Shown here: in pieces, positions 2,803-62,301 of the stretch | Position numbering within the stretch: position 1 is the stretch's first letter | Layout: each line of letters starts with the position of its first letter | Assembly: GCF_009800925.1 (NCBI RefSeq) | Contig: NZ_WOYF01000001.1 | Location: 62,001 to 126,000, forward strand | Direction: 5' to 3' | From: Budvicia diplopodorum | GTDB lineage: Bacteria; Pseudomonadota; Gammaproteobacteria; Enterobacterales; Enterobacteriaceae | DNA length: 64,000 nt | The notes under the pieces: generated by a model | Seen by the model: the letters and a program-made list of their open reading frames with translations, nothing else | Databases searched by the model: none | Told to the model about the DNA's origin: nothing | Program-made: the position numbers and the translations under genes

Positions 2803-2941
2803 TTATTAGGTAATCAAACCCTGTTAAATGTTATATCCGTCATGCTTCAAGCGGCTGTTGCGTTGGCCTACCACCATCCTGCCGCTCGAAATATTTGGCT
2901 ATATGATACATAAATACTTCACGACTAAATTTTAAAACAAC

Positions 2942-2968
2942 AAAAAAGCCTCCTGATAGGAGGCTTTT
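2942..2968 (-). terminator. phe operon attenuator terminator
   Basis: On the minus strand a 10-bp perfect stem (AAAAGCCTCC with its complement, 5-base loop) runs into a T tract, 45 bases after the pheM stop and upstream of pheS. A GGGGCTTT segment at 3000-3007 can pair with the left arm and would act as antiterminator, as in the E. coli pheST attenuator. Confidence 0.9.
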
Positions 2969-3013
2969 AGCGCTAGTTTTCGTTTATTCTCTTACGCGCA
3001 AAGCCCCTTGAAT

Positions 3014-3058
3014 TCAGGCGCTAAAGTAAAAAAAGAAACGGAAAATAACGGTACTCAT
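3014..3058 (-). CDS. pheM: pheST operon leader peptide
   Basis: Fourteen-codon leader peptide, read MSTVIFRFFFYFSA then TGA. Five of the fourteen residues are Phe, and the core IFRFFFYFS is the same as in the E. coli pheM product. Its translation senses charged tRNA-Phe: ribosome stalling on the Phe codons favours the antiterminator over the hairpin at 2942-2968. The peptide is not thought to have a function after synthesis. It lies between the rplT terminator and pheS. Confidence 0.95.
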   Translation of the reverse strand: MSTVIFRFFFYFSA

Positions 3059-3173
3059 GATGGTGTTACCCTGTATCGGTTTGAATATAAAGCGTTTAAA
3101 GTTTGCTTAGACCGCATAATACTACGTTTAATTACTCGCTATTACCAACAATTATATGAGCAATTAAAAGTAA

Positions 3174-8578: not shown

Positions 8579-8756
8579 ATCGTTTTTCCTTAAGGTAAAC
8601 TGACGCTGAGTGATAAACTCTGGCTAAGAACTAAAAAATACGCCAAAATTCACCGCCAGTTATCACTGAAGCCTTTAATTAAGGCTAACTACAATGACGA
8701 TAACTTAAATTCTACACCGTTTTGCTTTTAAAGTGTAATCCGTTAACCGAAAGAAA

Positions 8757-8772
8757 AAGCAATCGTTAACTT
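8757..8772 (+). promoter_or_regulatory. PurR operator upstream of purR
   Basis: AAGCAATCGTTAACTT matches the PurR consensus ANGCAANCGNTTNCNT at all but one defined position. It lies 52 bases before the purR start, where autoregulation by PurR with hypoxanthine or guanine is expected from E. coli. Confidence 0.75.
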
Positions 8773-8824
8773 ATCCGTTTACACTCTATTTAATACTAGT
8801 GAAAGCTCAGGAGTACTCTGTCTT

Positions 8825-9841
8825 ATGGCAACAATAAAGGATGTGGCTAAACATGCTGGCGTCTCTACAACAACGGTCTCCCACGTTATTAATAAAACTC
8901 GTTTTGTAGCTGAAGATACCAAAACGGCCGTCTGGGCAGCCATTAAGCAATTGAACTATTCTCCTAGCGCCGTTGCCCGTAGCTTAAAAGTCAATAACAC
9001 TAAAACTATTGGCCTGCTCGCGACATCAAGCGGCTCACCCTATTTTGCCGAAGTCATTCAGGCAGTAGAAGCAGCCTGTTACAAAAAAGGCTATACCCTG
9101 ATCTTATGTAACTCACAAAACGATCTGGAAAAGCAGGAATCCTACCTCGCCATGCTGGCTCAAAAGCGGGTCGACGGCATGCTGGTTATGTGTTCTGAAT
9201 ATCCGGCTCCGCTGCTCAATCTATTGCAGAATTACCACAATATCCCAATGATGGTAATGGACTGGGGTAAGCACAGCGATTTTACTGACAATATTGAAGA
9301 TAACGGTTTCCACGGTGGATATCTGGCTACCCGCTATTTGATCGACCGCGGCCATAGGGAAATTGCGACCATCACCGGACAGCTTAATGAGCATACCGGG
9401 CGTGAGCGGCATAAAGGCTTTTTATATGCGCTAAAAGAGGCCAAAATTGCTATTCCTGATGAATGGATTATCGAAGCTGACTTCCAGCCGCATGAAGGCT
9501 ATGAAGGAATGATGAAGCTGCTTAACGTGTCCAAACGCCCTACCGCACTATTTTGTGGCGGCGACGTGATTGCGATGGGTGCGCTTTGTGCCGCCGGTGA
9601 AATGGGGCTTCAGGTACCGGAAGATATTTCCGTTATCGGATATGACAATATTGCCAACACCCGCTTCTTTAACCCACCGTTGACCACCATTCAACAGCCG
9701 AAAGAAACGTTGGCTGAAATGGCTCTGGATATGCTGCTGGATAAGATCATTAATAAGCGTGAAACCAACAATTCGATTGAATTACATCCCGAGCTGGTTG
9801 AACGCCATTCAGTCACTGACGGACCTCACTTGAATAAATAG
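8825..9841 (+). CDS. purR: HTH-type transcriptional repressor PurR
   Basis: LacI-family repressor of purine synthesis genes that binds DNA with hypoxanthine or guanine as corepressor. It has 338 residues (341 in E. coli). The helix-turn-helix and hinge helix ([20 protein letters not shown], then [11 protein letters not shown] to about residue 58) are nearly identical to E. coli PurR, followed by a periplasmic-binding-protein-like ligand domain with SPYFAE and IGYDN segments. A PurR box lies in its promoter. The gene is divergent from ynhF and convergent with htpX. Confidence 0.97.
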
Positions 9842-26333: not shown

Positions 26334-27605
26334 TTACTTAACCATCAACTTCTGCAAACAGCCAACAAACAGTTCAACGCTGGTTTTTAGCTGTTTCTCA
26401 TCAAAATCAAACTCGGCCTGATGGTGGCCTGCTTTAAGATCGGCGCCCACGATAAAATAAATGGATTTACCGCCGTGACGCTGTACCCGCTTAGCCAGTA
26501 TAGTGGCATCTTCGCTGCCGCCGAATGAACGCTGTGCAACGGCCGTCAGTTCAGGATGCTGTGCAACTACGTCGGCTAATAAATCAATCAGCTCAGGGTC
26601 ATTTCGCAGATCGACCGCTTCACCCATCACTTCGCTTTCTAAACGCAGATCAAAGCTCTGTGCTACACCTTTAGCCATACGCTCAACCTGTTCGGCCATA
26701 AAGGTATTGATTGACTCATCTTCACCGCGAACTTCTACCTGAATTTCACCGTAGGCTGGCACCACGTTACGGCCTTCACCGGCGCGGATAACGCCAACGT
26801 TGATGCGCGACATGCCTTTACCGTGGCGAGAAATACCCAGCATTTGCGTTGCCGCATGGCAAGCGCCTGCCAGCGCGTTGCGACCAATATGTGGTTCTGC
26901 GCCCGCGTGAGCGGGAGCGCCGTAGAAACGGAAATCATACTTAGTGGTACACAGAAAGTTATTCGGGTTAAGAACAATTTCACCGGTTTTGGCAATAAAA
27001 CCGATATGCATACCTAGGAAGTAGTCTGCATCGTCAACGATACCGCTTTCAGCCATCGGTCTGGCACCGCGAACGCCCTCTTCCGCCGGTTGGAAAAGCA
27101 GCTTCACTTTTCCGCCCAGTGAACGGCTATTCTCCACTAACCATTTGGCAATGCCCAGACCGATGGACATATGCCCATCGTGGCCGCAGGCATGCATCAG
27201 GCCAGCGCTTTTCGATGCAAAATCGCCGCTATTAGGAATATGGTCACCGGCAGCGCACTCCTGCACGGCTACGCAATCAATATCAAACCGCAGGGCCACC
27301 GTCGGGCCCGGCTTACCGCTGTCAAATACCGCCATGCATCCGGTCAGGCCGTCCATCTCATCCAGCAACGCCTGAGAGATGCCGCGCTCTTGAGCCAGCG
27401 CTAAGCCACGCTCAACCACGTCCGCTTTACGGCCACGAACGAACTCACGATTAATCACGTTAGGCCCGGCAAGAACCTCAAGCCCCATACCGCGCAGTTC
27501 GGTAATTAAACGTGCCGTAGTGGTAAATTCGGACCAGCCGATTTCTGGAAAGCGGTGAAGTTCACGACGCCACGTGACCAGTTGGCTTAAATCAATTGTC
27601 GACAT
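26334..27605 (-). CDS. M20-family amidohydrolase (AbgA-like)
   Basis: Metal-dependent aminoacylase/amidohydrolase of 423 residues, closest in pattern to AbgA, a subunit of p-aminobenzoyl-glutamate hydrolase. Metal-site motifs are MHACGHDGHMSIG near 140, PAEEGVRGARPM near 178 and the C-terminal GADLKAGHHQAEFDFDE. A dimerisation domain lies at about 230-345. It would release an amino group or amino acid from an N-acyl or amide substrate; the substrate is unknown. It lies 21 bases after the DcuC-family carrier and is probably co-transcribed with it. No AbgB-like partner is next to it, so the true role may differ from AbgA. Confidence 0.88.
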   Translation of the reverse strand: MSTIDLSQLVTWRRELHRFPEIGWSEFTTTARLITELRGMGLEVLAGPNVINREFVRGRKADVVERGLALAQERGISQALLDEMDGLTGCMAVFDSGKPGPTVALRFDIDCVAVQECAAGDHIPNSGDFASKSAGLMHACGHDGHMSIGLGIAKWLVENSRSLGGKVKLLFQPAEEGVRGARPMAESGIVDDADYFLGMHIGFIAKTGEIVLNPNNFLCTTKYDFRFYGAPAHAGAEPHIGRNALAGACHAATQMLGISRHGKGMSRINVGVIRAGEGRNVVPAYGEIQVEVRGEDESINTFMAEQVERMAKGVAQSFDLRLESEVMGEAVDLRNDPELIDLLADVVAQHPELTAVAQRSFGGSEDATILAKRVQRHGGKSIYFIVGADLKAGHHQAEFDFDEKQLKTSVELFVGCLQKLMVK

Positions 27606-27626
27606 ATCCCTTTTCCTTATCTGTCG

Positions 27627-28931
27627 TTACAGCATAACCAAAGCAACAAATATGACCGCAACAATCATTGACGGAGCCGTACGTTTTACTAACTCCACCG
27701 GGTTAACGTTAGCCAGACCGGCACAAACGATAACCACGCCAGCAATCGGAGACATAGTACGCCCCAGCGCGCCGGTAATAGCGGCGGCCATTCCTAAGTC
27801 AGGAATGGTGTACCCCAACTCAAGGGCATGACGCGTTACCGTGCCGTTAAAGGCCAACGCGGCAGCGTCACCAGAGCCGGTAATTGCTCCCATCAGGAAT
27901 GGACCAATAGTTCCGCCCCAGCGGGCCATTTCAGGATGCACTTTTAAGAAGGTAATGAACGTTTCGATCAGGCCCGATGACTGCAAACCGGCGGCAAACA
28001 CGCCAGCGGCGATGATAATACCGAGCACGTCACCATAGGCATGACCCATACCGCTAAAAAATTGCTTCGTCATGGTACTTGGGTTGCAGCGGGTAATAAT
28101 CAGCGCATAAATAGCACCAATAATCATCGCTGCCGGTACGCCCATTTTCACGCTACCAAACCAGGTGGTTAAACCCGCGATCAGCAGGAGAATTAGCGGA
28201 ACAAACGGGGCCGTTGCGTATAAATAGTTGGTTTTAACCGCGACTGGAGCCTCACTGCCGGTTGCTACCGTTGCGCTCTCGGCTAGCTCAACGCGGTACT
28301 CTTTACGCACTAAAGCAACAATAGATAGCCCAACCGCCGCGATACCACCGATAGCAAGGCTATATGGCGCATGGTGTTTGATTAAATCAACAATAGACAT
28401 AACCTGGAAACCATCGGTCCCTTTCATCACCTCATTGTAGAGGTTACTCACGAACGCATTATGGGAGAACCCGGGGCTAAGGAACGAACCGATGGTTCCG
28501 CTCAGTACGGCAGCACCCGCGATAGCCGGATGAATTCTGGCGCCAATCAGTAACGGAATTAAGGTTGCACCTACCGCAGCCGCACAGCCCGCAGCGGAAG
28601 GAATCGCGATATTGATAAAGAAAGTCACAATAACCGTGGCCGGGATCAAAAAGAAGCCCAGCCTATTCATCATGCTTGAAAGGGCACGAACCAAATGCAT
28701 ATCGCACTCGGTGTACTTCATGACGTAGGCAAAACCCATACTCGCACAGATAGCCTGAATCAGGTTAGCGGACGTCATACCAACGCCAAAAGCATCAAGC
28801 GCAGTCATAGGGGAAAGGTTTAACAGGCACAGGGCAATACCTGAACCGATTAATACCATGCGTGTTTCATACTGTTTTATCAGTAAAAATACTGTGATTG
28901 CAACAATCACCAGAGCAACAATTTGAACCAT
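27627..28931 (-). CDS. DcuC-family anaerobic C4-dicarboxylate carrier-like transporter
   Basis: Inner-membrane carrier of 434 residues with about 12 hydrophobic segments. Features of the DcuC family include the N-terminal helices VQIVALVIVAITVFLLIKQY, the PSAAGCAAAVGATLIPL segment and the C-terminal GSGDAAALAFNG region. DcuC proteins move succinate, fumarate or related anions. Given the amidohydrolase right downstream, the substrate may be an amide-bearing or acylated dicarboxylate; that is inference. The 636-base upstream region presumably carries the promoter. Confidence 0.85.
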   Translation of the reverse strand: MVQIVALVIVAITVFLLIKQYETRMVLIGSGIALCLLNLSPMTALDAFGVGMTSANLIQAICASMGFAYVMKYTECDMHLVRALSSMMNRLGFFLIPATVIVTFFINIAIPSAAGCAAAVGATLIPLLIGARIHPAIAGAAVLSGTIGSFLSPGFSHNAFVSNLYNEVMKGTDGFQVMSIVDLIKHHAPYSLAIGGIAAVGLSIVALVRKEYRVELAESATVATGSEAPVAVKTNYLYATAPFVPLILLLIAGLTTWFGSVKMGVPAAMIIGAIYALIITRCNPSTMTKQFFSGMGHAYGDVLGIIIAAGVFAAGLQSSGLIETFITFLKVHPEMARWGGTIGPFLMGAITGSGDAAALAFNGTVTRHALELGYTIPDLGMAAAITGALGRTMSPIAGVVIVCAGLANVNPVELVKRTAPSMIVAVIFVALVML

Positions 28932-29567: not shown

Positions 29568-31508
29568 TCACACGCTTCGCCCAAGGCTATCTTTGGCAAT
29601 CACCTGAAAATCATTAAAACTTTTGCTATTTAACAGCCGCTTGGTCGCCTTTTCTCGCACGAAGGTGACGAACAGATCGTAAATCGCCATCGCTTCTTCA
29701 TATTCAGCCTTGCTAATTACCAGCAGGAAAATAACGTTAGCGACCTCTTTCTTCTCTTTATTCCACTCAATACCGTTTGGTGCCAATATGGTAACGACGA
29801 CGGTTTTAGTGGCTAATAACCCCAGTGAATGCGGTAAAGCGATACCCTCACCCAGCAAGGTCGACACTATCGATTCACGCTCAACCAGCGACGGGTAAAA
29901 ATCTTTTGTCACATAGCCGTCAGACTCCAGCTGCTTGCAAACCTTTTTAAACAGGGCTTCCTGGGTCATTTTACCTTTGACGATCATGAAATTTCGCTCA
30001 TCAAAGAAGCGTTCCAGAATATACGGTTTAGTGCGATCGACCATCGCCAAGCGGCCAACCTGCTCTAACTGATAGGGCGTGGGAAACGGCGCTATTTTAA
30101 CGATAGGCTTATTTTTTTCGCTTAGCCTGACGGTAGTAATAACAAAGTCTTCATCAACCGATTCTAGCTCTTCGTATTCCCGCAGGGCGATAACACGTTG
30201 TATTTTCAACTGCGGAAATTCCCGCACTATTTTGGCTTCAATCACCCGAATGGTGGCATTACCCGAATCGGTCACTAACAGAACGAGAGGATGGCGGGTA
30301 TAGCCAACGCTATAATTACGCTCAAGCCCGACGCCAATATGCACCGCCAGATACCCCATTTCATCTTCACTAATAGGATACGGAATGCGATCCTCCATAT
30401 TTGCCATTGCGCTAAGCGTGACATCGTAGGCAAACGGATAATACTGTTTGATATCAGAAAGCAGAGGGTTTTTGGTGTTTATCTGATAACGCACCCGAGT
30501 CATCATCGCGGTCAGATGGGAAGCCAGATCGGTTTTAAGCTTAACGTCATTGCGTAAATCATAATTATAGGAATCATTAATGTAGGTGAGAACGTAGTCC
30601 ACCAGCGCATCGCCGCTGTGTTCACCCTGCTCACTCACGACGGCATTCTGATGACAAGGAATTCGGCGGGCAGAGATCTGAATCGCTAAATACGCTTCTT
30701 CTGCCGGCGAAATACCGCTGCCTAAAAAGAAGGCAAACCCTTTGGCGATTTCATTCACCGCATTATTCATCACGCAGTCCATGGGATCGGCGGCGAAGTC
30801 CACCAGCTCATGACCGCGGGTAATGCGTAAAATAGAAACGGCGCAGTTAAAAATCAGATACTGACGGCCTTCATTAGTCAGGCGAATATCAAAACGGTTA
30901 ACGCTGTTTTGCAGAATTTTTTCGATATAGGCCAAATCGATGTTGGTCAGAATGTCCTGCTTGAAGTTATTGACCGAACGCTCGTTTTCCATAGAAAACA
31001 GCTGCCATAAAATATCGGTAATACAGGTTCGGATTACGTGTTCAGCCCCTTCCAGCTTCATGCCCTGACGAGGCACGGTATCAAGCACAATCTGATACTT
31101 ATTCAATTGCTCACGTACAGAAACTATGTCGTGCTGTAAGGTTCCACGGCTGACAAACCACGCTTCGGCAATATCGTCCAGCTTGATCGGTAACGATGCC
31201 ATCAAAAACTTGAGTAATAGCGCGTCGACCCGCTCTTTAGAGGTACGGGGAATGGTTTTAATCTGGTGCTGCTGCATCGGCAAACTGGCAAACGCTTTTT
31301 CATCATCAACCTTGAGTTGGTAGCCCAGCCCCCGCTCATAAACAATGCGAGCACCGTAGCTAACCAAAACGTCATTCAACGCGGCGACATCGGTACGAAC
31401 GGTACGCGTTGACACATTGAAACGCTTCGCCAGCTCTTCCTGCGGCAGAGTTTCGGATTGAATAGCATCAAATAAATAAGCGAGACGTTGATAAGGAAAT
31501 AGAGCCAC
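29568..31508 (-). CDS. BglG/LicR-family transcriptional regulator with PRD, EIIB-like and EIIA domains
   Basis: A 646-residue regulator. Order: winged helix at the N-terminus (ELAKRFNVSTRTVRTDVAAL), a second helix-turn-helix region (about 80-140), two PRD domains, a galactitol-type EIIB-like domain and a fructose-type EIIA domain at the C-terminus with the active His in GIALPHSLG. PRD2 keeps both candidate histidines (LASHLTAMM, YLAVHIG), while PRD1 has Asn and Gln in their place, and the EIIB-like domain lacks its cysteine (LLVTDSGNAT). The start is taken as GTG at 31508 with AAAGG upstream; a TTG 11 codons earlier is possible. It lies just downstream of the eight-gene operon and probably controls it. 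Confidence 0.9.
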   Translation of the reverse strand: MALFPYQRLAYLFDAIQSETLPQEELAKRFNVSTRTVRTDVAALNDVLVSYGARIVYERGLGYQLKVDDEKAFASLPMQQHQIKTIPRTSKERVDALLLKFLMASLPIKLDDIAEAWFVSRGTLQHDIVSVREQLNKYQIVLDTVPRQGMKLEGAEHVIRTCITDILWQLFSMENERSVNNFKQDILTNIDLAYIEKILQNSVNRFDIRLTNEGRQYLIFNCAVSILRITRGHELVDFAADPMDCVMNNAVNEIAKGFAFFLGSGISPAEEAYLAIQISARRIPCHQNAVVSEQGEHSGDALVDYVLTYINDSYNYDLRNDVKLKTDLASHLTAMMTRVRYQINTKNPLLSDIKQYYPFAYDVTLSAMANMEDRIPYPISEDEMGYLAVHIGVGLERNYSVGYTRHPLVLLVTDSGNATIRVIEAKIVREFPQLKIQRVIALREYEELESVDEDFVITTVRLSEKNKPIVKIAPFPTPYQLEQVGRLAMVDRTKPYILERFFDERNFMIVKGKMTQEALFKKVCKQLESDGYVTKDFYPSLVERESIVSTLLGEGIALPHSLGLLATKTVVVTILAPNGIEWNKEKKEVANVIFLLVISKAEYEEAMAIYDLFVTFVREKATKRLLNSKSFNDFQVIAKDSLGRSV

Positions 31509-31559
31509 AGCCGTACCTTTACCCTTTGATCTGATAAGCAACGCTGAAAATCGTTAACC

Positions 31560-31700: not shown

Positions 31701-32441
31701 TTAACCGATCAGCTTTTTGGTCATCGCCAGCAAGGTTTTTACATCGTCAGGACGAGTATTACCGGTTGCTGAATCAATGATCGAGCTATAAATATGAGGA
31801 ATAATTTTCTTCACGCCCGCGTCCAGAGCAATCTTCATAATTTCTTCGAAGTTGTCTAAATCGATACCGCCGGTCGGTTCCAGATAAAAGTCATGCTGTG
31901 CGCAGGCTTTCGCTACGCAGGCATACTCTTCTTTATATTTCAGGCCGCTCATATTGAAGAACTTGATTGAGCTAGCGCCCATGTCTTTCAGCATGGCGAT
32001 GGCCGTTTCAACCGGAACAATGGCCTCAGGAGACTGAGAACTGAGCGGACCGGTAGAAATTTTAACCAAGCCGACTTTGCCGCTCGGTGAAACCAAGGCG
32101 TTAACCACGGTGTCGTTCTGGCCCAACAGCGCACGGCTGGTCGCCGCGCCGGTAAACACTTGATTAACGTGCTGGGGTTGAATCACTTTTGCAATCTGAG
32201 AAACCATCTCAGACTGGTTAGGATCGCCCGCGCCCAGGCCAATCGACAGCGCATTTTCAACGTCGTTAGCATACTTTTGCATATCGTCGATAGCGCTGGC
32301 TAAGTCCGAATAGTTCTTAGATAACACCCCAACAACCACATGGCCTTCTGCGGCAGCGTAGATATCGCGCGCATTTTCCCGAGAACCGGCCAAAACGTTT
32401 AAGCAAACGCGATCGTTATAATAGTTAGGACTTAATTGCAT
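31701..32441 (-). CDS. dgaF: 2-dehydro-3-deoxy-phosphogluconate aldolase, DgaF type
   Basis: TIM-barrel aldolase of 246 residues from the DgaF/EF_0839-type KDGP aldolase family. In Salmonella DgaF splits 2-keto-3-deoxygluconate 6-phosphate into pyruvate and glyceraldehyde 3-phosphate. Likely Schiff-base Lys lies in ASSIKFFNMSG and the phosphate loop in LEPTGGIDLDN. Here it is the last gene of the eight-gene operon, 3 bases after the DgaE-type gene, so the two enzymes act in sequence. The symbol reflects family membership; the natural substrate in this operon may differ. Confidence 0.87.
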   Translation of the reverse strand: MQLSPNYYNDRVCLNVLAGSRENARDIYAAAEGHVVVGVLSKNYSDLASAIDDMQKYANDVENALSIGLGAGDPNQSEMVSQIAKVIQPQHVNQVFTGAATSRALLGQNDTVVNALVSPSGKVGLVKISTGPLSSQSPEAIVPVETAIAMLKDMGASSIKFFNMSGLKYKEEYACVAKACAQHDFYLEPTGGIDLDNFEEIMKIALDAGVKKIIPHIYSSIIDSATGNTRPDDVKTLLAMTKKLIG

Positions 32442-32444
32442 GGT

Positions 32445-33557
32445 TTACGCTCCGGTGACCAGTTTACGAATATGAGAAGAGATAACCTCCAGCTGCGGTG
32501 GCGTTACGCTACGGACATCGGCTTCAACTTTACCTTCATTCGCTTTGTATTCACGGAAATAGATTGCGGTGGCGCCCTGTTTCAGCTGGCGCATAATCTC
32601 AAAGGTATTTTTACCAATGGCTTTTTCATCAAAAGAGATTTCGGTTCTGGCGATATCACGACCGGCAGCGTCCCAGACGATTTTGGCTGAAATTCCTGGA
32701 ATAGCGTTAAGATCGCGGATAAACGGCGCCATTTTCTCAACCATTTCCTGACCGGTCTCTTTCTTAGCCGTCAGATAAACTTCAATGGCGTGAGTCAGGC
32801 CGAGAATGCCCTCTTTACCAATCTTCATGGCACGGCCAATGCCGCTAGACTGAAGCTTCACCCACTCAACGTATTGCTTACGGCCGGTGACCAGACCGCT
32901 GGTTGGCCCTTCAATGGCTTTACCGCCGCTGTAGATAACCAGATCGGCGCCCATATGATAGTAAGCGGTTAAATCTTCTTCCGCGGCCGCATCAACGATC
33001 AATGGCAGATTATGCGCTTTGGCTACAGCAGCCGCATCGGCCACGCTGAGCATGCTTTTCTGCACGGTGTGATGAGATTTGATATACAGAATTGCGGCGG
33101 TCTGAGGGGTGATTCTGGCAGCAACGTTGGCGGCACTGCACTCATTAGCAAATCCGGCTTCAACCACTTTACCGCCGCCCAGAGCAACCATGGTATCTAC
33201 CGGCGCACCGAAGTTTACGTTATGGCCCTTAGGCACGATAATTTCACGCGCTACCTGCTTATCAGAACTGTGCAGGTTGAGCAGTAAGTCGGCGTCATCT
33301 TTAATAATAACTGCGGCAACCGTCTGGGCAATACCGGCCGATGCGCTGGCAACCACCACCGCCCCCTCTACGCCCAGTAGCTTCGCGATGTACTCGCCGG
33401 TTTTATTCACCAGATCTTTCAGTTCAAAGTAGTGATTCATACCGTAATTAACCACCTCGACAACTTCAGCCTTGGGGGTAGATACGCCTAAGGCGGTCAT
33501 GCGTCCTGATGCATTAATAACGTTTTTTAAATGATATTTTTCATAGATTGATTGCAT
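32445..33557 (-). CDS. dgaE: DgaE-family PLP-dependent ammonia-lyase
   Basis: Pyridoxal-phosphate enzyme of 370 residues related to SelA and to Salmonella DgaE, the D-glucosaminate-6-phosphate ammonia-lyase. The PLP-binding Lys lies in VIYSGGKAIEGPTSG near residue 213, with the conserved Asp in LPLIVDAAAEED. It would remove water and ammonia from a 2-amino sugar acid to give a 2-keto-3-deoxy acid. The first 17 bases overlap the upstream deacetylase gene, implying coupled translation and a direct hand-over of product. The symbol is by family. Confidence 0.87.
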   Translation of the reverse strand: MQSIYEKYHLKNVINASGRMTALGVSTPKAEVVEVVNYGMNHYFELKDLVNKTGEYIAKLLGVEGAVVVASASAGIAQTVAAVIIKDDADLLLNLHSSDKQVAREIIVPKGHNVNFGAPVDTMVALGGGKVVEAGFANECSAANVAARITPQTAAILYIKSHHTVQKSMLSVADAAAVAKAHNLPLIVDAAAEEDLTAYYHMGADLVIYSGGKAIEGPTSGLVTGRKQYVEWVKLQSSGIGRAMKIGKEGILGLTHAIEVYLTAKKETGQEMVEKMAPFIRDLNAIPGISAKIVWDAAGRDIARTEISFDEKAIGKNTFEIMRQLKQGATAIYFREYKANEGKVEADVRSVTPPQLEVISSHIRKLVTGA

Positions 33558-34680
33558 AAATTAACTCGCCTTCTTTAGTTGCAATACATTCACCCGCCAC
33601 AATGGCGGCGATGGGAATAAATCGTTGTTTTCCGGTCCTCTTCTGGCCATCGGCGTCCGAAAGCTCAATGTCGCCGTCTTTAATGTCAAACACGGTGATG
33701 TCGCCGTCATAGCCCGGCTGTAAATAGCCTTTACCTTTCAGGTGTAGCAAATCGGCCGCTTTCGACGTCACACAGTCGAGAATTTGTTTCGGCGCAAAGC
33801 CCATACATAAGAACTTAGTCATCACCGCCGCCAGGCTGAATACCGGCCCGTTAATGCGATTGCGGTGATAAATATCGGAGCTTATCAGGTCAGGATAGGT
33901 GCCAATCTTCATCGCCTGTTCGGCAACGGAGAAGCTAAAGCTCTCGCCGCCGTGGCCGACATCGAGAATGACACCGCGGGCTAAGGCTCGTTGAATCGAC
34001 GGTTTCAGATTACCGTCGGCATCTAAAATACGGTTAGGTTTACCGTTAAAACAGTGGGTAATGATATCGCCCTTGTCTAACAGATTGGCAATGTCATCTA
34101 AATTGGGTGGGTTATTACCGATGTGAACCATCAGCGGTAACCCGTTGTGTTTTTGCATCTCTTTGGCCCGTTCCAACGGCTTAATACCATTTTCACCAAC
34201 CACGCTTTTACTCATGCGCGCTTTAATTCCCACCACAAATTCAGGGTGACGTTTAACCGCGGCCTGTAAACAATCATTATCAATGTTGTTCATATCAGAC
34301 AGTTCGTTCTGCGCAATAATACCGATGCGCGAGATATTCAAAAACGAATAGACGTTAGTTTTGTAGTTACCCGTCAGTGAATAAAAACGATCGACATCGT
34401 CTGCGCCAACGCTACCGGCGTCAATCACCGTCGTCACCCCGCAGGCAGCCCCGGCTAAGTCCGGCTCATCGTGATAAATCGGTGACTCCGGGTAGCAGTG
34501 AGTATGAGCATCGATCCAGCCAGCGCTGATAAAATATTTTCCGTTAAGGTCGATTTGCTTACGTGCCGTTTGGCTGCCAGCAACCGACGTACCTATTTCA
34601 CAGATTTTTCCATCGTTAACCACCACGTCAACCACGTCGCCGTTAATCAGTTTTGCTTGCTTAATGATTAAATCATTCAT
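33541..34680 (-). CDS. Amidohydrolase/deacetylase-family metallohydrolase (EF_0837 type)
   Basis: Amidohydrolase-superfamily enzyme of 379 residues, with the dihydroorotase-like layout: AHTHCYP (HxH) near residue 60, a probable carbamylated Lys in VVGIKARMS, MVHIG, THCFNG and the Asp in SSDIYH. A small beta domain is formed by both ends of the chain. Members of this subgroup remove acetyl or similar groups. Placed between the membrane genes and the ammonia-lyase, it probably frees the amino group of the imported compound. AGGTGAG precedes the ATG. Confidence 0.87.
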   Translation of the reverse strand: MNDLIIKQAKLINGDVVDVVVNDGKICEIGTSVAGSQTARKQIDLNGKYFISAGWIDAHTHCYPESPIYHDEPDLAGAACGVTTVIDAGSVGADDVDRFYSLTGNYKTNVYSFLNISRIGIIAQNELSDMNNIDNDCLQAAVKRHPEFVVGIKARMSKSVVGENGIKPLERAKEMQKHNGLPLMVHIGNNPPNLDDIANLLDKGDIITHCFNGKPNRILDADGNLKPSIQRALARGVILDVGHGGESFSFSVAEQAMKIGTYPDLISSDIYHRNRINGPVFSLAAVMTKFLCMGFAPKQILDCVTSKAADLLHLKGKGYLQPGYDGDITVFDIKDGDIELSDADGQKRTGKQRFIPIAAIVAGECIATKEGELIYAINL

Positions 34681-34727
34681 GACGTTTGCTCACCTCTCAC
34701 GCTAACAAAAACAGCTTATTTAACCAT

Positions 34728-35390
34728 CTATTTAACTATCAGCGGGAAGAAATACCCGAACAGCATGGCACCCAAAATAGCCCCACCGGCAACCGGCTTT
34801 TTCCATATGTAGAAAATCAGAGAACCGATTAATGAGCCCACGCCGATTGGAATAGACGCGGCCATGGCGGCAAGGATAATCAAAGGCCCCAAGAAGCGCC
34901 CAGAGGTATTGCCCGCGCCCATCATGATATCCGCACCGTAGGTTGAGTTACCCTGATTCACGGTAAATTTGCGCGCCAGAATAATCACCAAACCAACGGC
35001 AACGCCCAACACCATGCCGGTCGCTAATGCAGCATAGAAGTTAGTGACCAGAAAGCCAAAGCCACCGGCTAACAGCAGTGCCGGAACGCCAAGGCCCAGG
35101 CCGGTCTGAATCGCACCGCCAATGTCTAAAATACCCACCAGTGAACCTTCGATAATTCGGGCAAACAGGAAGCTGGCACCGAATGCCGCAACGGCACCGT
35201 AGGTACCGGTATCAAGGCCTGCACGTAGCATGGCCACGAAGGCCACTTCGTTAAATGCGCCAAAGCCATAAACTACATACATATGGGTACCGGCGAAAAC
35301 CCCGGCTGACAGCAGGCCGACAAAGATCGGGAACGTCCACTCGGCATACCAAGCATCACTTTTTAAATCGTTTGTTATATCCATCATCAA
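34728..35390 (-). CDS. DUF4310 family membrane protein
   Basis: Hydrophobic protein of 220 residues with about six membrane segments, from WTFPIFVGLLSAGVFAGTHM to GAILGAMLFGYFFPLIV. It is rich in glycine inside the helices, as many permeases are. It belongs to a family (DUF4310, EF_0833 type) known only from this gene cluster, and its function is undescribed. It follows the DUF4311 gene by 77 bases. The pair most likely forms the membrane part of a transporter, by position and topology only. Confidence 0.85.
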   Translation of the reverse strand: MMMDITNDLKSDAWYAEWTFPIFVGLLSAGVFAGTHMYVVYGFGAFNEVAFVAMLRAGLDTGTYGAVAAFGASFLFARIIEGSLVGILDIGGAIQTGLGLGVPALLLAGGFGFLVTNFYAALATGMVLGVAVGLVIILARKFTVNQGNSTYGADIMMGAGNTSGRFLGPLIILAAMAASIPIGVGSLIGSLIFYIWKKPVAGGAILGAMLFGYFFPLIVK

Positions 35391-35467
35391 ATCCTAGTAA
35401 TTGTTTTTACTGGTATCGTTGATTAGTAGTATTACCCGAAGAGCGATTACGCCTCTCCCGGTTAAAA

Positions 35468-36268
35468 TTACTTACCGCTTAACACGTTGTGCGCATGCTG
35501 CAACCAATCAGGTACACCCAGCATGAAAGACTGCAATAACTTGAGGTCAAAGCCACGGAAGAAGCCGCTCAAGACGAACAGCGCAATAACGGCAACCATC
35601 ATCGTTTTAGTGACTTTGGTCCAACCGTTGTCGTCTACGCCTTTACCAATCAGGATACCCAACACTAAGCCCGGGATAGCGTTGCCCATGATTAACTGAG
35701 CACAGCCGCCAAACAGGGTGGCCCAAAAGCCAGAACGACGACCGGCATCCATTGCCGCAAGCCAGAAAATAACCGGCATGACGGTGTTAACCAATATGTT
35801 AGCGGCAGGAACTAATACGTTAGTGGCGGTAGTTTGCAGCGATGCAGGCACCGCTGAAGCCGTAGTATTCAGGAAGGCAACAACCAGCGCACCGATGATG
35901 CCGCAGGCAATAGCCATCTTCTTAGGATTGTGTAATGTTTCAGCCACATTACGGTTTCGGGTCATTAGCGCCGCCGCACCCCAGTGAGGGATAATGCGGT
36001 GGTCAACGTCTTGAGTAAATGCACCGGCGGCAACCGACGATGCCCATGCGTTGAAGAAGAAGCCTAAGCCAAATGAGAAGTGAGATGCAGGATCCCCCTC
36101 GCATGAGTTCAGCTCGCCTAAGGTACGAAATGCGCCCATGCCCTGAGTAGTTGGCGCATGGAACATACGCGCGGCACCGGCACCAAGGCCGAAACCGCAC
36201 AGACCACCGATAATTAATGACTTTATCAGGACCTCAAAAACGGAATACGTGGTAGTTACATCCATCAT
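35468..36268 (-). CDS. DUF4311 family membrane protein
   Basis: Membrane protein of 266 residues with about seven hydrophobic segments. Conserved-looking polar stretches between helices include TLGELNSCEGDPASHFSFG and TQDVDHRIIPHWGAAALMTR, which could face a substrate. It belongs to DUF4311 (EF_0832 type), found only in this cluster; function undescribed. It starts 30 bases after the DUF4312 gene. Two ATG codons open the frame (MMDV), and either may be used. Confidence 0.85.
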   Translation of the reverse strand: MMDVTTTYSVFEVLIKSLIIGGLCGFGLGAGAARMFHAPTTQGMGAFRTLGELNSCEGDPASHFSFGLGFFFNAWASSVAAGAFTQDVDHRIIPHWGAAALMTRNRNVAETLHNPKKMAIACGIIGALVVAFLNTTASAVPASLQTTATNVLVPAANILVNTVMPVIFWLAAMDAGRRSGFWATLFGGCAQLIMGNAIPGLVLGILIGKGVDDNGWTKVTKTMMVAVIALFVLSGFFRGFDLKLLQSFMLGVPDWLQHAHNVLSGK

Positions 36269-36298
36269 TTTTTCCTCTAAACCATTTCAGCCGATCGA

Positions 36299-36595
36299 TT
36301 AAACCGATACGAAATGAATCTCTTGCACATTAAGCAATGTCACATCTAATGAAACATCCAAAACAACGGAATAAAGCTCACGCTTACGGGGTAAAAAGAC
36401 AAACAGGAACTTCTCGGTAGTCGCTTTTACGCTAGCGCTAACGATTTCTACGTCCTGAGGTTCAATACGTAGAATGATATTGCTGGTATCTTTTAAGACC
36501 GTTCGTTGCACAGAATTTAACGCGTCAGCGATAGCTTTTTGTTTAGTGTCGCCCTTACCGCTCACGCGTACCGATGTCTTAAGATGTTCTTTCAT
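36299..36595 (-). CDS. DUF4312 family protein
   Basis: Soluble protein of 98 residues from DUF4312 (EF_0831 type). An N-terminal KTSVRVSGKGDTKQKAIADAL segment and alternating hydrophobic strands suggest a small alpha/beta fold. It has no cysteine and no histidine apart from His4 and His94. Its start overlaps the stop of the SFCGS gene by one base (TAATG), so the two products are made together and may form a complex with the membrane proteins. Function unknown. Confidence 0.83.
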   Translation of the reverse strand: MKEHLKTSVRVSGKGDTKQKAIADALNSVQRTVLKDTSNIILRIEPQDVEIVSASVKATTEKFLFVFLPRKRELYSVVLDVSLDVTLLNVQEIHFVSV

Positions 36596-36960
36596 TATGC
36601 GTTGCCGTATTTTTTATTGAATGCTTTAACCAGGCGCTCGCCCAGCTCTTCTTTGTCCATAAAACCAAAACCTAATACCGTACAACCGTCTGCGATAGCG
36701 GTTTCGCCTTCTTCAATAGAACGCATACCGTGACGCACTTTATAGCCATATTTATTCTGCGCGGTAATCGCACCGGCACCGCCGCTTCCGCAAAAAGAAA
36801 TGCCTAAATCAGCCTGTTCAGCGTTCATCATGTCACCCAGTTTCATATCAGCAGCAACGCCCGGGATCACAATGGCTTTACCACCGGCCGCGTCAACGCC
36901 TGCCCCAACTTTCTGCCCTTTGCCTAAACGGTCACCGATAACAACGACGATTTGCTTCAT
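36595..36960 (-). CDS. Glycine-rich SFCGS family protein
   Basis: Soluble protein of 121 residues, of the EF_0830 type named for its SFCGSGGAGAITAQ motif near residue 56. The N-terminus (MKQIVVVIGDRLGKGQKVGAG) suggests a Rossmann-like alpha/beta fold. The single cysteine is in the motif. The shape recalls EIIB-like domains and also E. coli YhfU (DUF2620), another small protein coded beside a membrane carrier and a PLP enzyme; both comparisons are inference from pattern. It lies 16 bases after the PRD gene. Confidence 0.85.
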   Translation of the reverse strand: MKQIVVVIGDRLGKGQKVGAGVDAAGGKAIVIPGVAADMKLGDMMNAEQADLGISFCGSGGAGAITAQNKYGYKVRHGMRSIEEGETAIADGCTVLGFGFMDKEELGERLVKAFNKKYGNA

Positions 36961-36976
36961 GTTTCTTTCTCCAAAA

Positions 36977-37315
36977 TTAGGTGTTTGAACGTGCTATTTC
37001 AAAATGAACCGACAGTAAATACGCCTCTTCAACCGGCAAACCCGGCAGGGTATTTACTACGCGCTTAGCTAATTGCATTGACTCTGATGAAATCTCTTCA
37101 AACAGAGATTGATCAACCTCAGGCAATGGTTCGCCCGTTTTCGCCCGAAGAACCATGGCCTTAACGTGAGACTCCAACATTTGCTGTTGCACGTCTGTGG
37201 TATAAGCCCCTTCTTCTTTTAGCCAACCATCGATAGTCATCAGAAGCTGTTTAGTCACTTCTGCTGGCTGTAGGTTGTCTCCTACCATGTTGAAACGAAT
37301 ATGGCTCTCACTCAT
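36977..37315 (-). CDS. Free-standing PRD domain protein (EF_0829 type)
   Basis: A 112-residue protein that is a single PTS regulation domain with no DNA-binding or RNA-binding part. Two candidate phosphorylation histidines are kept: LESHVKAMVLRAKTG and YLLSVHFEIAR. They sit in the same surroundings as those of PRD2 in the nearby BglG-type regulator (LASHLTAMM, YLAVHIG). It is the first gene of the eight-gene operon. It may be phosphorylated by HPr or act as a partner of the regulator; no experiment is known to me. Confidence 0.85.
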   Translation of the reverse strand: MSESHIRFNMVGDNLQPAEVTKQLLMTIDGWLKEEGAYTTDVQQQMLESHVKAMVLRAKTGEPLPEVDQSLFEEISSESMQLAKRVVNTLPGLPVEEAYLLSVHFEIARSNT

Positions 37316-37707
37316 AAAACAGCTCTCTAATCAAATGCGATAATTATGGACGAAGAAGTGAATCTTGCCGTTCAAGGCTGAAAGCAATTTCCGATTGTTC
37401 GGTTCATCCGGCTAAATTGACGATGGAGCCACCCTACACATTTTAATTTGCCGTTAGTAGACCGACTTTTTCCGGTTCAAAGTGGAAATAAAGTGGAACA
37501 AAGCGTTGTAGTTAATGTGCTAAATGGAAATAACTGGCAGTAGCGAATAACGTTTTTTCGCGGATAACAATGGAGAGGTTTAGCCTACAGCTGACAAGAA
37601 TTAACTTATTGGTTAATATAGAATTTGATCTTTTCCTTTTTGACTGAGCGGGCTGATTTTAGACAAAAAAATAGCGCCATTTCCGGCGCCATTTTTAGCT
37701 ATTTTGA
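37316..37707. promoter_or_regulatory. Promoter region of the eight-gene operon
   Basis: The 392 bases upstream of the PRD gene, ending at rluB. TGGAA occurs at 37483, 37494 and 37525, steps of 11 and 31 bases, near one and three helical turns. TTTCC (37469-37473) and GGAAA (37484-37488) make an inverted pair with a 10-base spacer like the motif before the regulator gene. These are candidate regulator sites; the promoter itself was not assigned. Confidence 0.4.
37665..37695 (-). terminator. Terminator after rluB
   Basis: On the minus strand a 6-bp GC stem (GGCGCC with GGCGCT, loop GGAAAT) is followed by ATTTTTTT, 18 bases after the rluB stop. Confidence 0.7.
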
Positions 37708-61389: not shown

Positions 61390-62301
61390 TCAGTCCAATA
61401 AGTTGAGGAAGGCAGCGCCGCGAACGCCGCCGGAATCGCCCCAGCGCGCTTTCTCAATGCGAGGAACTTTGGCTACGCTGAGCAGATGCGGCTTAATCTT
61501 TTCGGGCAGCAGAGGATACATCTCATCGAAATTTGATAATCCTCCGCCAATCACCACCAGATGAGGATCAATAATCGTTAGGATATTAGCCAGACAAACG
61601 GCCAGAAGATCTAAAAAGCGCTCAACGTGCTCAACGGCTTTCACCTCACCGGCCCGATAGCGTTCAATGATAACCTTGGCCGGTAGTGCCTGTTGGTAAA
61701 AGTGGTTATAGACCCACTCAAAACCGCGCCCTGAAATATAGTTTTCGATACAGCCGTCGTGGCCGCAGCCGCAGTGAACTCGGGGAATGTCCCGGCCAAG
61801 AATATCTAGCCCGTCGACCGGCAGCCTTAAGTGGCCAAACTCACCGGCAATATAGCTTTTACCGGTAAAAATCTTACCGTTAATTATCAGACCACCGCCC
61901 ACGCCGGTACCTAAAATAATGCCCAGCACGCTGGGGTATTGGCGAAACTCGCCGTCCCATGCTTCAGACAAAGCAAAACAGTTGGCATCGTTATCAATAC
62001 GAATCGGGCGATTAAGCCGTTTTTCTAAATCGGCCGCCAGCGGTTTTCCCATTGCGGCAGGCACATTGGCGGTAAACAGCGCTCCGGTTTCGCTATCGGG
62101 CATGCCCGGAATACCGATACCGATCTTTCCCTGACTGCCAAGCTCTGAGTCCGCATCAAGCGTCAGTTGCGCAATCACATCCAACAGCGCCTGATAATCG
62201 TCCCGGGGGGTTGGAACCCGCTTTTGAATTAACCGATTGTGGTCTGCATCAAAGGCACCAAACTCAATCTTGGTTCCCCCCACATCAAAACCGTAATACA
62301 T
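61390..62301 (-). CDS. nagK: N-acetyl-D-glucosamine kinase
   Basis: ROK-family kinase that phosphorylates GlcNAc recovered from murein. It has 303 residues, as in E. coli. ATP-binding [14 protein letters not shown] at the N-terminus, [13 protein letters not shown] near 105, GTGVGGGLI, and the zinc-binding ROK motif [17 protein letters not shown] near 180-195. The start is ATG at 62301 with GGAGG 8 bases upstream; an ATG five codons earlier overlaps that site. It follows lolE by 43 bases. Confidence 0.97.

Follow-up and report, generated by a model that had tools for sequence, protein, structure and literature searches.

Among the described systems that come close to the genes treated here is the Salmonella dga operon, a D-glucosaminate phosphotransferase system (PTS) encoded by DgaABCD-EF, and in Pseudoalteromonas N-acetyl-D-glucosaminate (GlcNAc1A) is degraded by the same order of reactions as proposed below, with other enzyme families, as outlined in PMC9537276 and PMC12017989. 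In this study we analysed a stretch of 64,000 nucleotides from Budvicia diplopodorum (positions 62,001 to 126,000 of contig NZ_WOYF01000001.1, hereafter the window), which at 31701-37315 holds an operon that shares with dga a DgaE-family lyase, a DgaF-type aldolase and a probable end in pyruvate and glyceraldehyde-3-phosphate. It further encodes a metal-dependent deacetylase, a free PRD protein and four proteins of the families SFCGS, DUF4312, DUF4311 and DUF4310. We found that the genes of these four proteins travel as a block, and that SFCGS is predicted to have the fold of the RpiB/LacAB isomerases. Tentatively, we read the block as a PTS-driven, phosphorylating importer feeding the deacetylase, the ammonia-lyase and the aldolase, a reading that we hold at somewhat less than an even chance.

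The operon type is already catalogued by NCBIfam and its families have reportedly been described before. No assigned function was found in the literature searched, which here and below consisted of openly licensed papers: searches for DUF4310, DUF4311, DUF4312, SFCGS and the EF_ and AHA_ tags gave nothing on topic, and those under six Salmonella STM tags gave incidental mentions only. The families are seen in enterobacteria (a Salmonella record included), Bartonella, relatives of Chromobacterium, bacilli and lactic acid bacteria, and under an importer reading four families without assigned function would gain a common role.

The operon and its gene families

Eight open reading frames (ORFs) lie adjacent on the minus strand at 31701-37315, with spacers between 3 and 77 bases long and overlaps of 1 and 17 bases, in the order PRD, SFCGS, DUF4312, DUF4311, DUF4310, amidohydrolase, DgaE-family lyase and DgaF-type aldolase. 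All eight scored above the curated cut-off of their own model in the NCBIfam EF_0829-EF_0839 / AHA_3910-3917 series. An earlier note on this DNA, made from the letters alone, had described eight tightly packed minus-strand genes with these identities, and both the ORFs and the scores bear it out; it was one gene short, as a regulator at 29568-31541 accompanies the set in most of the loci coded. The nine genes are listed below, with bit scores against cut-offs.

36977-37315, minus strand: free PRD protein of the EF_0829/AHA_3910 family (TIGR03582, 117.9 against 69.35)
36595-36960, minus strand: SFCGS glycine-rich protein (TIGR03577, 209.2 against 141.1; PF14272)
36299-36595, minus strand: DUF4312, small protein (TIGR03578, 123.9 against 89.65; PF14189)
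35468-36268, minus strand: DUF4311, multi-pass membrane protein (TIGR03580, 487.7 against 301.1; PF14188)
34728-35390, minus strand: DUF4310, multi-pass membrane protein (TIGR03579, 360.2 against 215.45; PF14187)
33541-34680, minus strand: metal-dependent amidohydrolase/deacetylase of the EF_0837 family (TIGR03583, 528.3 against 432.15)
32445-33557, minus strand: pyridoxal phosphate (PLP) dependent ammonia-lyase of the DgaE family (TIGR01437, 574.6 against 385.3)
31701-32441, minus strand: DgaF-type aldolase for 2-keto-3-deoxygluconate (KDG) 6-phosphate (KDGP; TIGR03581, 402.7 against 222.4; NF047796, 396.3 against 300)
29568-31541, minus strand: transcription regulator with helix-turn-helix, Mga, PRD and EIIA-2 domains (Pfam)

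For DUF4310 the first start codon listed is TTG, and ATG codons follow directly after it. On its upstream side the operon is separated from a gene that by eye is pseudouridine-synthase-like by approx. 390 bases and a terminator-like hairpin (37674-37689); such hairpin matches were no commoner than in shuffled sequence.

The gene block and its distribution

Relatives were collected by a profile scan of genome contigs with a four-sequence DUF4311 alignment; 498 were confirmed, and the 80 best of these were kept. They are the ones most like the Enterococcus sequence, so that Bacilli are over-represented. Adding four loci from plasmids and that of the window gave 85 coded loci, of which 69 had enough flank for the gene surroundings to be read ("wide" loci). 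The neighbourhood survey proposed in the earlier note was run on 85 loci: the block SFCGS-DUF4312-DUF4311-DUF4310 was intact in 81 of them, and the block plus PRD in 77. Several of the exceptions are contig ends or ORF-calling failures; by tblastn, SFCGS and a broken DUF4312 were recovered in L050, and the PRD gene in L053 and L036. Deacetylase, lyase and aldolase were each present in 65/69 wide loci, placed after the block, before it or on both sides, and three wide loci (L035, L036 and L038) held no enzyme gene at all. A same-strand regulator lay within 9 kb in 64/69. The four genes are the unit that moves together, and the enzymes rearrange around it. An Aeromonas caviae locus (8747-9358) is a remnant: it lacks deacetylase and lyase, and a single frame joins the start of DUF4310 to the end of the aldolase.

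Within the window's own family DUF4311 matches were found in 95 of 198 genomes, a count that includes one false match (G108, DjlA) and one genome (G028) with DUF4311 in pieces with stop codons. In a sample of the phylum 13 of 397 genomes were positive, all 13 of them in that same family. In the phylum of Bacillus massiliglaciei, 8 of 398 genomes had an SFCGS match above the cut-off. The association of these genes is clearly not a chance one. By megablast, the cluster in its Klebsiella form gave no match in the E. coli genomes searched. A Salmonella Infantis record carries the operon, and the LT2 tags STM4440-STM4443 and STM4447 are legible in its notes.

Other enterobacterial genomes also gave weak matches to DUF4311. 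At four of eight such loci (L014, L015, L016 and L021) the gene concerned is presumably DjlA-like; the matches were taken as similarity between membrane stretches and rejected. A 501 kb Salmonella whole-genome contig, AFYI01000007, is filed among phage records, and the match in it sits among chromosomal genes.

The predicted fold of SFCGS

In the earlier note SFCGS was among the four proteins put in the place of EIIA-EIIB-EIIC-EIID. Here a correction is needed: SFCGS is not recognisable as an EIIA or EIIB, and structure prediction of SFCGS alone gave an RpiB/LacAB fold. The AlphaFold2 model reached a pLDDT of 92.7 and a pTM of 0.88. A Foldseek search with it returned 24 PDB chains at E<=1e-3, every one an RpiB or LacAB, and the uronate-pathway ketol-isomerase 4u8f was among the matches. 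With VIA-align, 21 RpiB/LacAB entries scored from Z 12.5 (rmsd 3.2, 118 aligned residues) down to 8.8; the best unrelated chain had Z 8.2 and two further RpiB/LacAB members came lower, at 8.1 and 7.7.

At the level of profiles PF02502 (LacAB_rpiB) matched 30 of 55 SFCGS members at E<=1 (best 3.5e-5), and DUF2620 matched 25 of 55 (best 0.0063). Below their cut-offs, the Pfam SFCGS model touches the RpiB gene of one genome (G644, E 4.8e-4) and the LacAB_rpiB model touches SFCGS in another (G639, E 7.1e-5). In direct profile comparison RpiB came first of 84 profiles, reversed controls included, at E 0.0044, with an unrelated family close behind at 0.0069, and 1 of 200 shuffles scored as high. By profile comparison alone the kinship between the two families is weak; from the fold matches of the model together with the profile matches we concluded that SFCGS has the predicted fold of the RpiB/LacAB isomerases.

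Likeness to these isomerases extends to the Cys-Gly-(Thr/Ser)-Gly motif. Cys57 of SFCGS was present in 107/107 homologues and aligns with Cys65 of the CGTG motif of RpiB, which we take to be catalytic. SFCGS differs from the isomerases in being shorter and in lacking the catalytic His and the phosphate-binding tail. Among 28 RpiB compared, His9, Arg109, Arg132, His133 and Arg136 were invariant and His98 nearly so; in the alignment none of His9, His98, Arg109 and the C-terminal Arg132/His133/Arg136 had a counterpart in SFCGS, and RpiB Asp8 and Lys77 were met one position off. The His residues presumably belong to the active site of RpiB and the C-terminal Arg and His to its phosphate site. As these residues have no counterpart, SFCGS is not an ordinary ribose-5-phosphate isomerase.

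SFCGS might still catalyse an isomerase or epimerase step of the pathway and be no transporter subunit, the substrate then being a sugar derivative that needs an extra step before deacetylation or deamination. The fold, the conserved Cys and the match to 4u8f speak for this, but the His and Arg residues are absent, and SFCGS stays in the block with the membrane proteins even where the enzymes are missing; we regard it as unlikely.

Two EIIB families were tried as relatives of SFCGS. Glucitol EIIB, considered for its motif, was rejected at hhalign E 0.32-0.34. With mannose EIIB there is an alignable DRLxxGQ motif, at an E of 0.073 that does not rise above background.

The membrane proteins and DUF4312

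Both DUF4311 and DUF4310 have five hydrophobic segments, and DUF4311 contains many invariant charged and polar residues. The model of DUF4310 is helical with a pLDDT of 71.6. DUF4312 has no hydrophobic segments. That the block could be a new importer, as the earlier note supposed, is plausible in view of two multi-pass hydrophobic proteins, a conserved block of four genes and PTS genes added in some genomes; that it replaces EIIA-EIIB-EIIC-EIID fits less well, the composition being unlike an EIIA-EIIB picture and no match of the membrane proteins to a PTS family having been found. In profile comparison no PTS family rose above background for the block proteins. Mannose-family EIIC and EIID, an impression by eye as relatives of DUF4310 and DUF4311, had no profile support, and DUF4310 no fold match.

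The four proteins could also form a complex in the membrane, enzyme or pump, that has no part in the uptake of the enzymes' substrate. Such a view would agree with the absence of any fold match or clear sequence match to a transporter, and the Salmonella record has a note on a weak likeness of DUF4310 to methyltransferase subunit C. We consider it very unlikely, since the linkage with the three catabolic enzymes is steady (each in 65/69 loci) and the eight-gene operon has no other membrane protein. DUF4310 as an Mtr subunit was rejected, as no Mtr family of Pfam matched; one Mtr chain was present among the weak VIA-align rows for DUF4310 (Z 4.0).

DUF2232 (PF09991) weakly matched 44 of 58 DUF4311 members at E<=1, with a best E of 4.8e-4 and 0.013 for the window's protein over residues 149-208, below the cut-off. 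We neither take nor exclude this match as a possible lead on the fold of DUF4311.

Catabolic enzymes and substrate

The sequence of deacetylation, loss of ammonia and aldol cleavage suggested by the earlier note is supported by the families of the three enzymes, deacetylase, ammonia-lyase and KDGP aldolase; its substrate is a matter of inference. We concluded that the operon is catabolic, with pyruvate and glyceraldehyde-3-phosphate as its probable end products. Solved relatives of the deacetylase are 8wzy, 2ics and 2ogj, of which 2ics is presumably EF_0837 itself, and deacetylases of the EF_0837 type reportedly act on N-acetyl-D-amino acids. The aldolase (solved relatives 3m0z, 3nzr and 3lm7) exceeds the cut-off of the DgaF equivalog NF047796. 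The lyase lies inside the DgaE family (TIGR01437), though its score with the DgaE equivalog, 361.1, falls well short of the cut-off of 600.

In the docking described in PMC9529869, Arg301, Arg332 and Arg346 of DgaE lie near the phosphate site and Arg226 near the substrate carboxylate. The three Arg were conserved in 77/77 lyase homologues, as were Lys and the other His, with His162 in 76/77; the lyase of the window has all of them. The conserved Lys is at 213 in our alignment and is given as Lys-217 in the text of PMC9529869.

Of the 69 wide loci one, the Klebsiella operon, includes a lactonase, which would suit an aldonic acid as substrate. In a study of Aeromonas, matches to OngB and OngC of the Pseudoalteromonas pathway were distant or none and other deacetylases and deaminases were left open (PMC11653859).

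PTS components and the regulator

A pointer to the PTS is found on the Bartonella plasmid HY406, where the eight genes and the regulator are followed downstream by a fusion of HPr (residues 9-86) and Enzyme I (EI; 117-640), as seen in a domain scan. The near-identical plasmid HY761 carries a ptsP gene of the same length at the same place; because of this near-identity, and as the HY761 gene is known from annotation only, the two were counted as one case. The annotated gene table of HY406, which declares itself incomplete, lists no other PTS gene and no kinase. Of 9 genomes with the operon that were searched for HPr, 8 had it.

Conserved histidines are found in both regulatory proteins: His50 and His104 of the free PRD in 106/106 homologues, and in the regulator His342 in 76/76 and His401 in 74/76. 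An EIIA domain was found in the regulators of the window and of Bartonella, and none was detected in that of E. faecalis. In Vagococcus L036 (7030-9240) regulator and PRD protein are fused in one frame of 736 residues, and the free PRD is therefore at least partly regulatory.

A table entry for STM4441-2 in PMC11000858 suggests control by CRP. Upstream of the window's operon no CRP site with <=2 mismatches was found, and CRP control of this operon was rejected; the Klebsiella, Aeromonas and Xenorhabdus loci have 9-of-10 CRP sites.

Some further observations were made around these genes. In Enterococcus ratti (4735-6728 of L039) HPr- and EI-like genes lie directly upstream of the regulator; they are probably a housekeeping pair. 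On the Bartonella plasmid L121 (274-7254) replication and partition genes near the operon form an inverted duplication, and a type VI secretion cluster is present. Approx. 640 bases past the window's regulator follow a DcuC-family transporter and an M20 amidohydrolase (26334-28931); the same order is present in Leminorella grimontii, just these 2 of 69 loci having it. Rfam gave a single match in the window that reaches the gathering score, a Phe_leader attenuator at 2939-3062.

A proposed route of import and breakdown

In the route that we tentatively favour, DUF4311 and DUF4310 would form a membrane channel, with SFCGS (RpiB fold, invariant Cys) and DUF4312 as cytoplasmic subunits. The imported compound would be a 2-amino-2-deoxy-aldonic acid with an N-acetyl group, GlcNAc1A or something closely related being the most likely candidate. 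Import would be driven by the PTS, from phosphoenolpyruvate over Enzyme I and HPr to a carrier, which may be a His of the regulator, a His of the free PRD or the Cys of SFCGS, and the acid would arrive phosphorylated. The amidohydrolase would then take off acetate and the DgaE-like enzyme ammonia, giving KDG-6-phosphate, which the DgaF-like aldolase would cleave to pyruvate and glyceraldehyde-3-phosphate. The PRD regulator would control the operon. PTS-driven import, if confirmed, would make the system a sugar PTS of a new kind.

The source of the phosphate may differ between loci. SugK, a kinase of the PfkB type whose nearest matches, below their cut-offs, are a KDPG-aldolase/kinase fusion and KDG kinases, was found within 9 kb in 15/18 wide loci with the 6-phosphoglycosidase MupG and in 0/51 without it (p 1.4e-12, a value overstated by the relatedness of the genomes, with 14 Enterococcus and 4 Lactococcus among the 18 MupG loci). 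A lactose/cellobiose-family EIIC is present in 15/18 MupG loci. The E. faecalis locus L023 (13611-16346) adds such an EIIC, MupG and a hydrophobic protein of 99 residues without Pfam or NCBIfam match, and these additions point to a disaccharide as a second entry. In the proposed scheme the EIIC could deliver unphosphorylated acid after glycoside cleavage; MupG loci would need a kinase because the phosphorylated disaccharide is cut to the unphosphorylated acid. Elsewhere, in a simple scheme, the acid would enter already phosphorylated through the block; a KDG kinase may also be encoded at another site of the same genome.

Several observations weigh against this route. SFCGS is RpiB-like rather than EIIB-like; DUF4312 has no conserved His or Cys in its homologue alignment; the DUF4310 model gave no fold match in structure searches; and no PTS family of Pfam matched at E<=1 in 59 DUF4310 or 58 DUF4311 members. 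From the fusion in L036 the Bartonella HPr-EI might serve regulation only. The draft genome G585 (AwWohl) has the operon and no HPr or EI match, in a contig that ends in the regulator, itself in two frames; Bartonella has its HPr-EI at the following position. The MupG loci are all from Enterococcus or Lactococcus. The kinase rule is weakened by L078 (Brochothrix; outside the 69, with a short upstream flank), where SugK follows right after the aldolase, 4.5 kb from DUF4311, without MupG, and by L086, with a PfkB gene 9.6 kb away, just past the 9 kb limit, and no MupG. At the position of DgaE Arg226 the lyases have Lys in 61/77 and Arg in 12 (window included). The Arg triad also occurs in MupG loci and in the distant 8t7j, a member of unknown function, and is therefore no proof of a phosphorylated substrate. 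Genes for lytic polysaccharide monooxygenases showed no clear link to the operon (21/36 against 73/162 genomes, p 0.20, G108 dropped); chitin oxidation as the source of the substrate was rejected, this co-occurrence not being significant.

There is a serious possibility, though we lean away from it, that the block is an ordinary importer, ion-coupled or facilitated, without phosphorylation. HPr and EI would then serve only to control the regulator and the free PRD, deacetylase and lyase would convert the unphosphorylated acid to KDG, and a KDG kinase encoded at another site would yield KDGP. The Pseudoalteromonas Ong pathway works in this way, as outlined in PMC9537276, and the fusion in L036, the invariant His342 of the regulator and G585 fit in as well; the presence of SugK points to phosphorylation of free KDG in 15 wide loci and in L078. 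Against this stand the 51/51 wide loci without MupG, none with a kinase-like gene within 9 kb, and a dedicated HPr-EI that seems much for mere regulation.

Comparison with the dga, Ong and yhf systems

Compared with the Salmonella dga operon, the operon of the window has SFCGS, DUF4312, DUF4311 and DUF4310 instead of EIIA-D, has an extra deacetylase, and its lyase falls below the DgaE equivalog cut-off. In Companilactobacillus jidongensis (13699-20738 of L072) DgaE/DgaF and sorbose/mannose-type EII genes, a dga-like set, adjoin an EF_0829-type operon, thus one genome can hold both systems. With the Ong pathway the proposed route shares the order of the chemistry, deacetylation, deamination and KDG-6-phosphate; as outlined in PMC9537276, Ong differs in a D-aminoacylase-like OngB, a fold-type III PLP enzyme (OngC), import by an SSS symporter and phosphorylation by KdgK.

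The E. coli yhf operon (YhfS-T-U, Php, YhfW-X, YhfY-Z) shares a free PRD, which matches TIGR03582 below the cut-off (E 1.6e-6). It also has the small YhfU (DUF2620), with weak RpiB and SFCGS matches, and in place of the membrane pair the 434-residue YhfT; its enzymes differ, and its genes are annotated as uncharacterised or putative. When YhfU was compared with 93 profiles, among them reversed controls, RpiB (E 0.0016) and SFCGS (E 0.019) ranked highest, SFCGS just before an unrelated family at 0.021, and the YhfU-SFCGS score was reached by 5 of 200 shuffles. By profile comparison YhfT had no detectable similarity to DUF4310 or DUF4311; as a DUF4311 relative, suspected by eye, it was rejected because 94 of 200 column shuffles scored as high. 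YhfT was found in 25/198 genomes of the window's family. Among papers naming two or more yhf genes, judged by title, none was on the function of the E. coli operon.

Thus a free PRD, a small putatively RpiB-like protein and a membrane protein recur in the yhf operon. It is conceivable, if rather doubtful, that DUF4311/DUF4310 with SFCGS and DUF4312 represent a new class of PTS-dependent phosphorylating permeases unrelated to known EIIC folds, with a cytoplasmic subunit recruited from RpiB/LacAB isomerases, and that yhf is a second branch of the same design. The predicted fold of SFCGS makes a long-standing puzzle testable, and together with the yhf link it gives a first concrete handle on the importer role and the PTS question. 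In comparison with the known systems, new here are this fold, the recurrence in yhf, the HPr-EI fusion of Bartonella, the travel of the block and the association of SugK with MupG.

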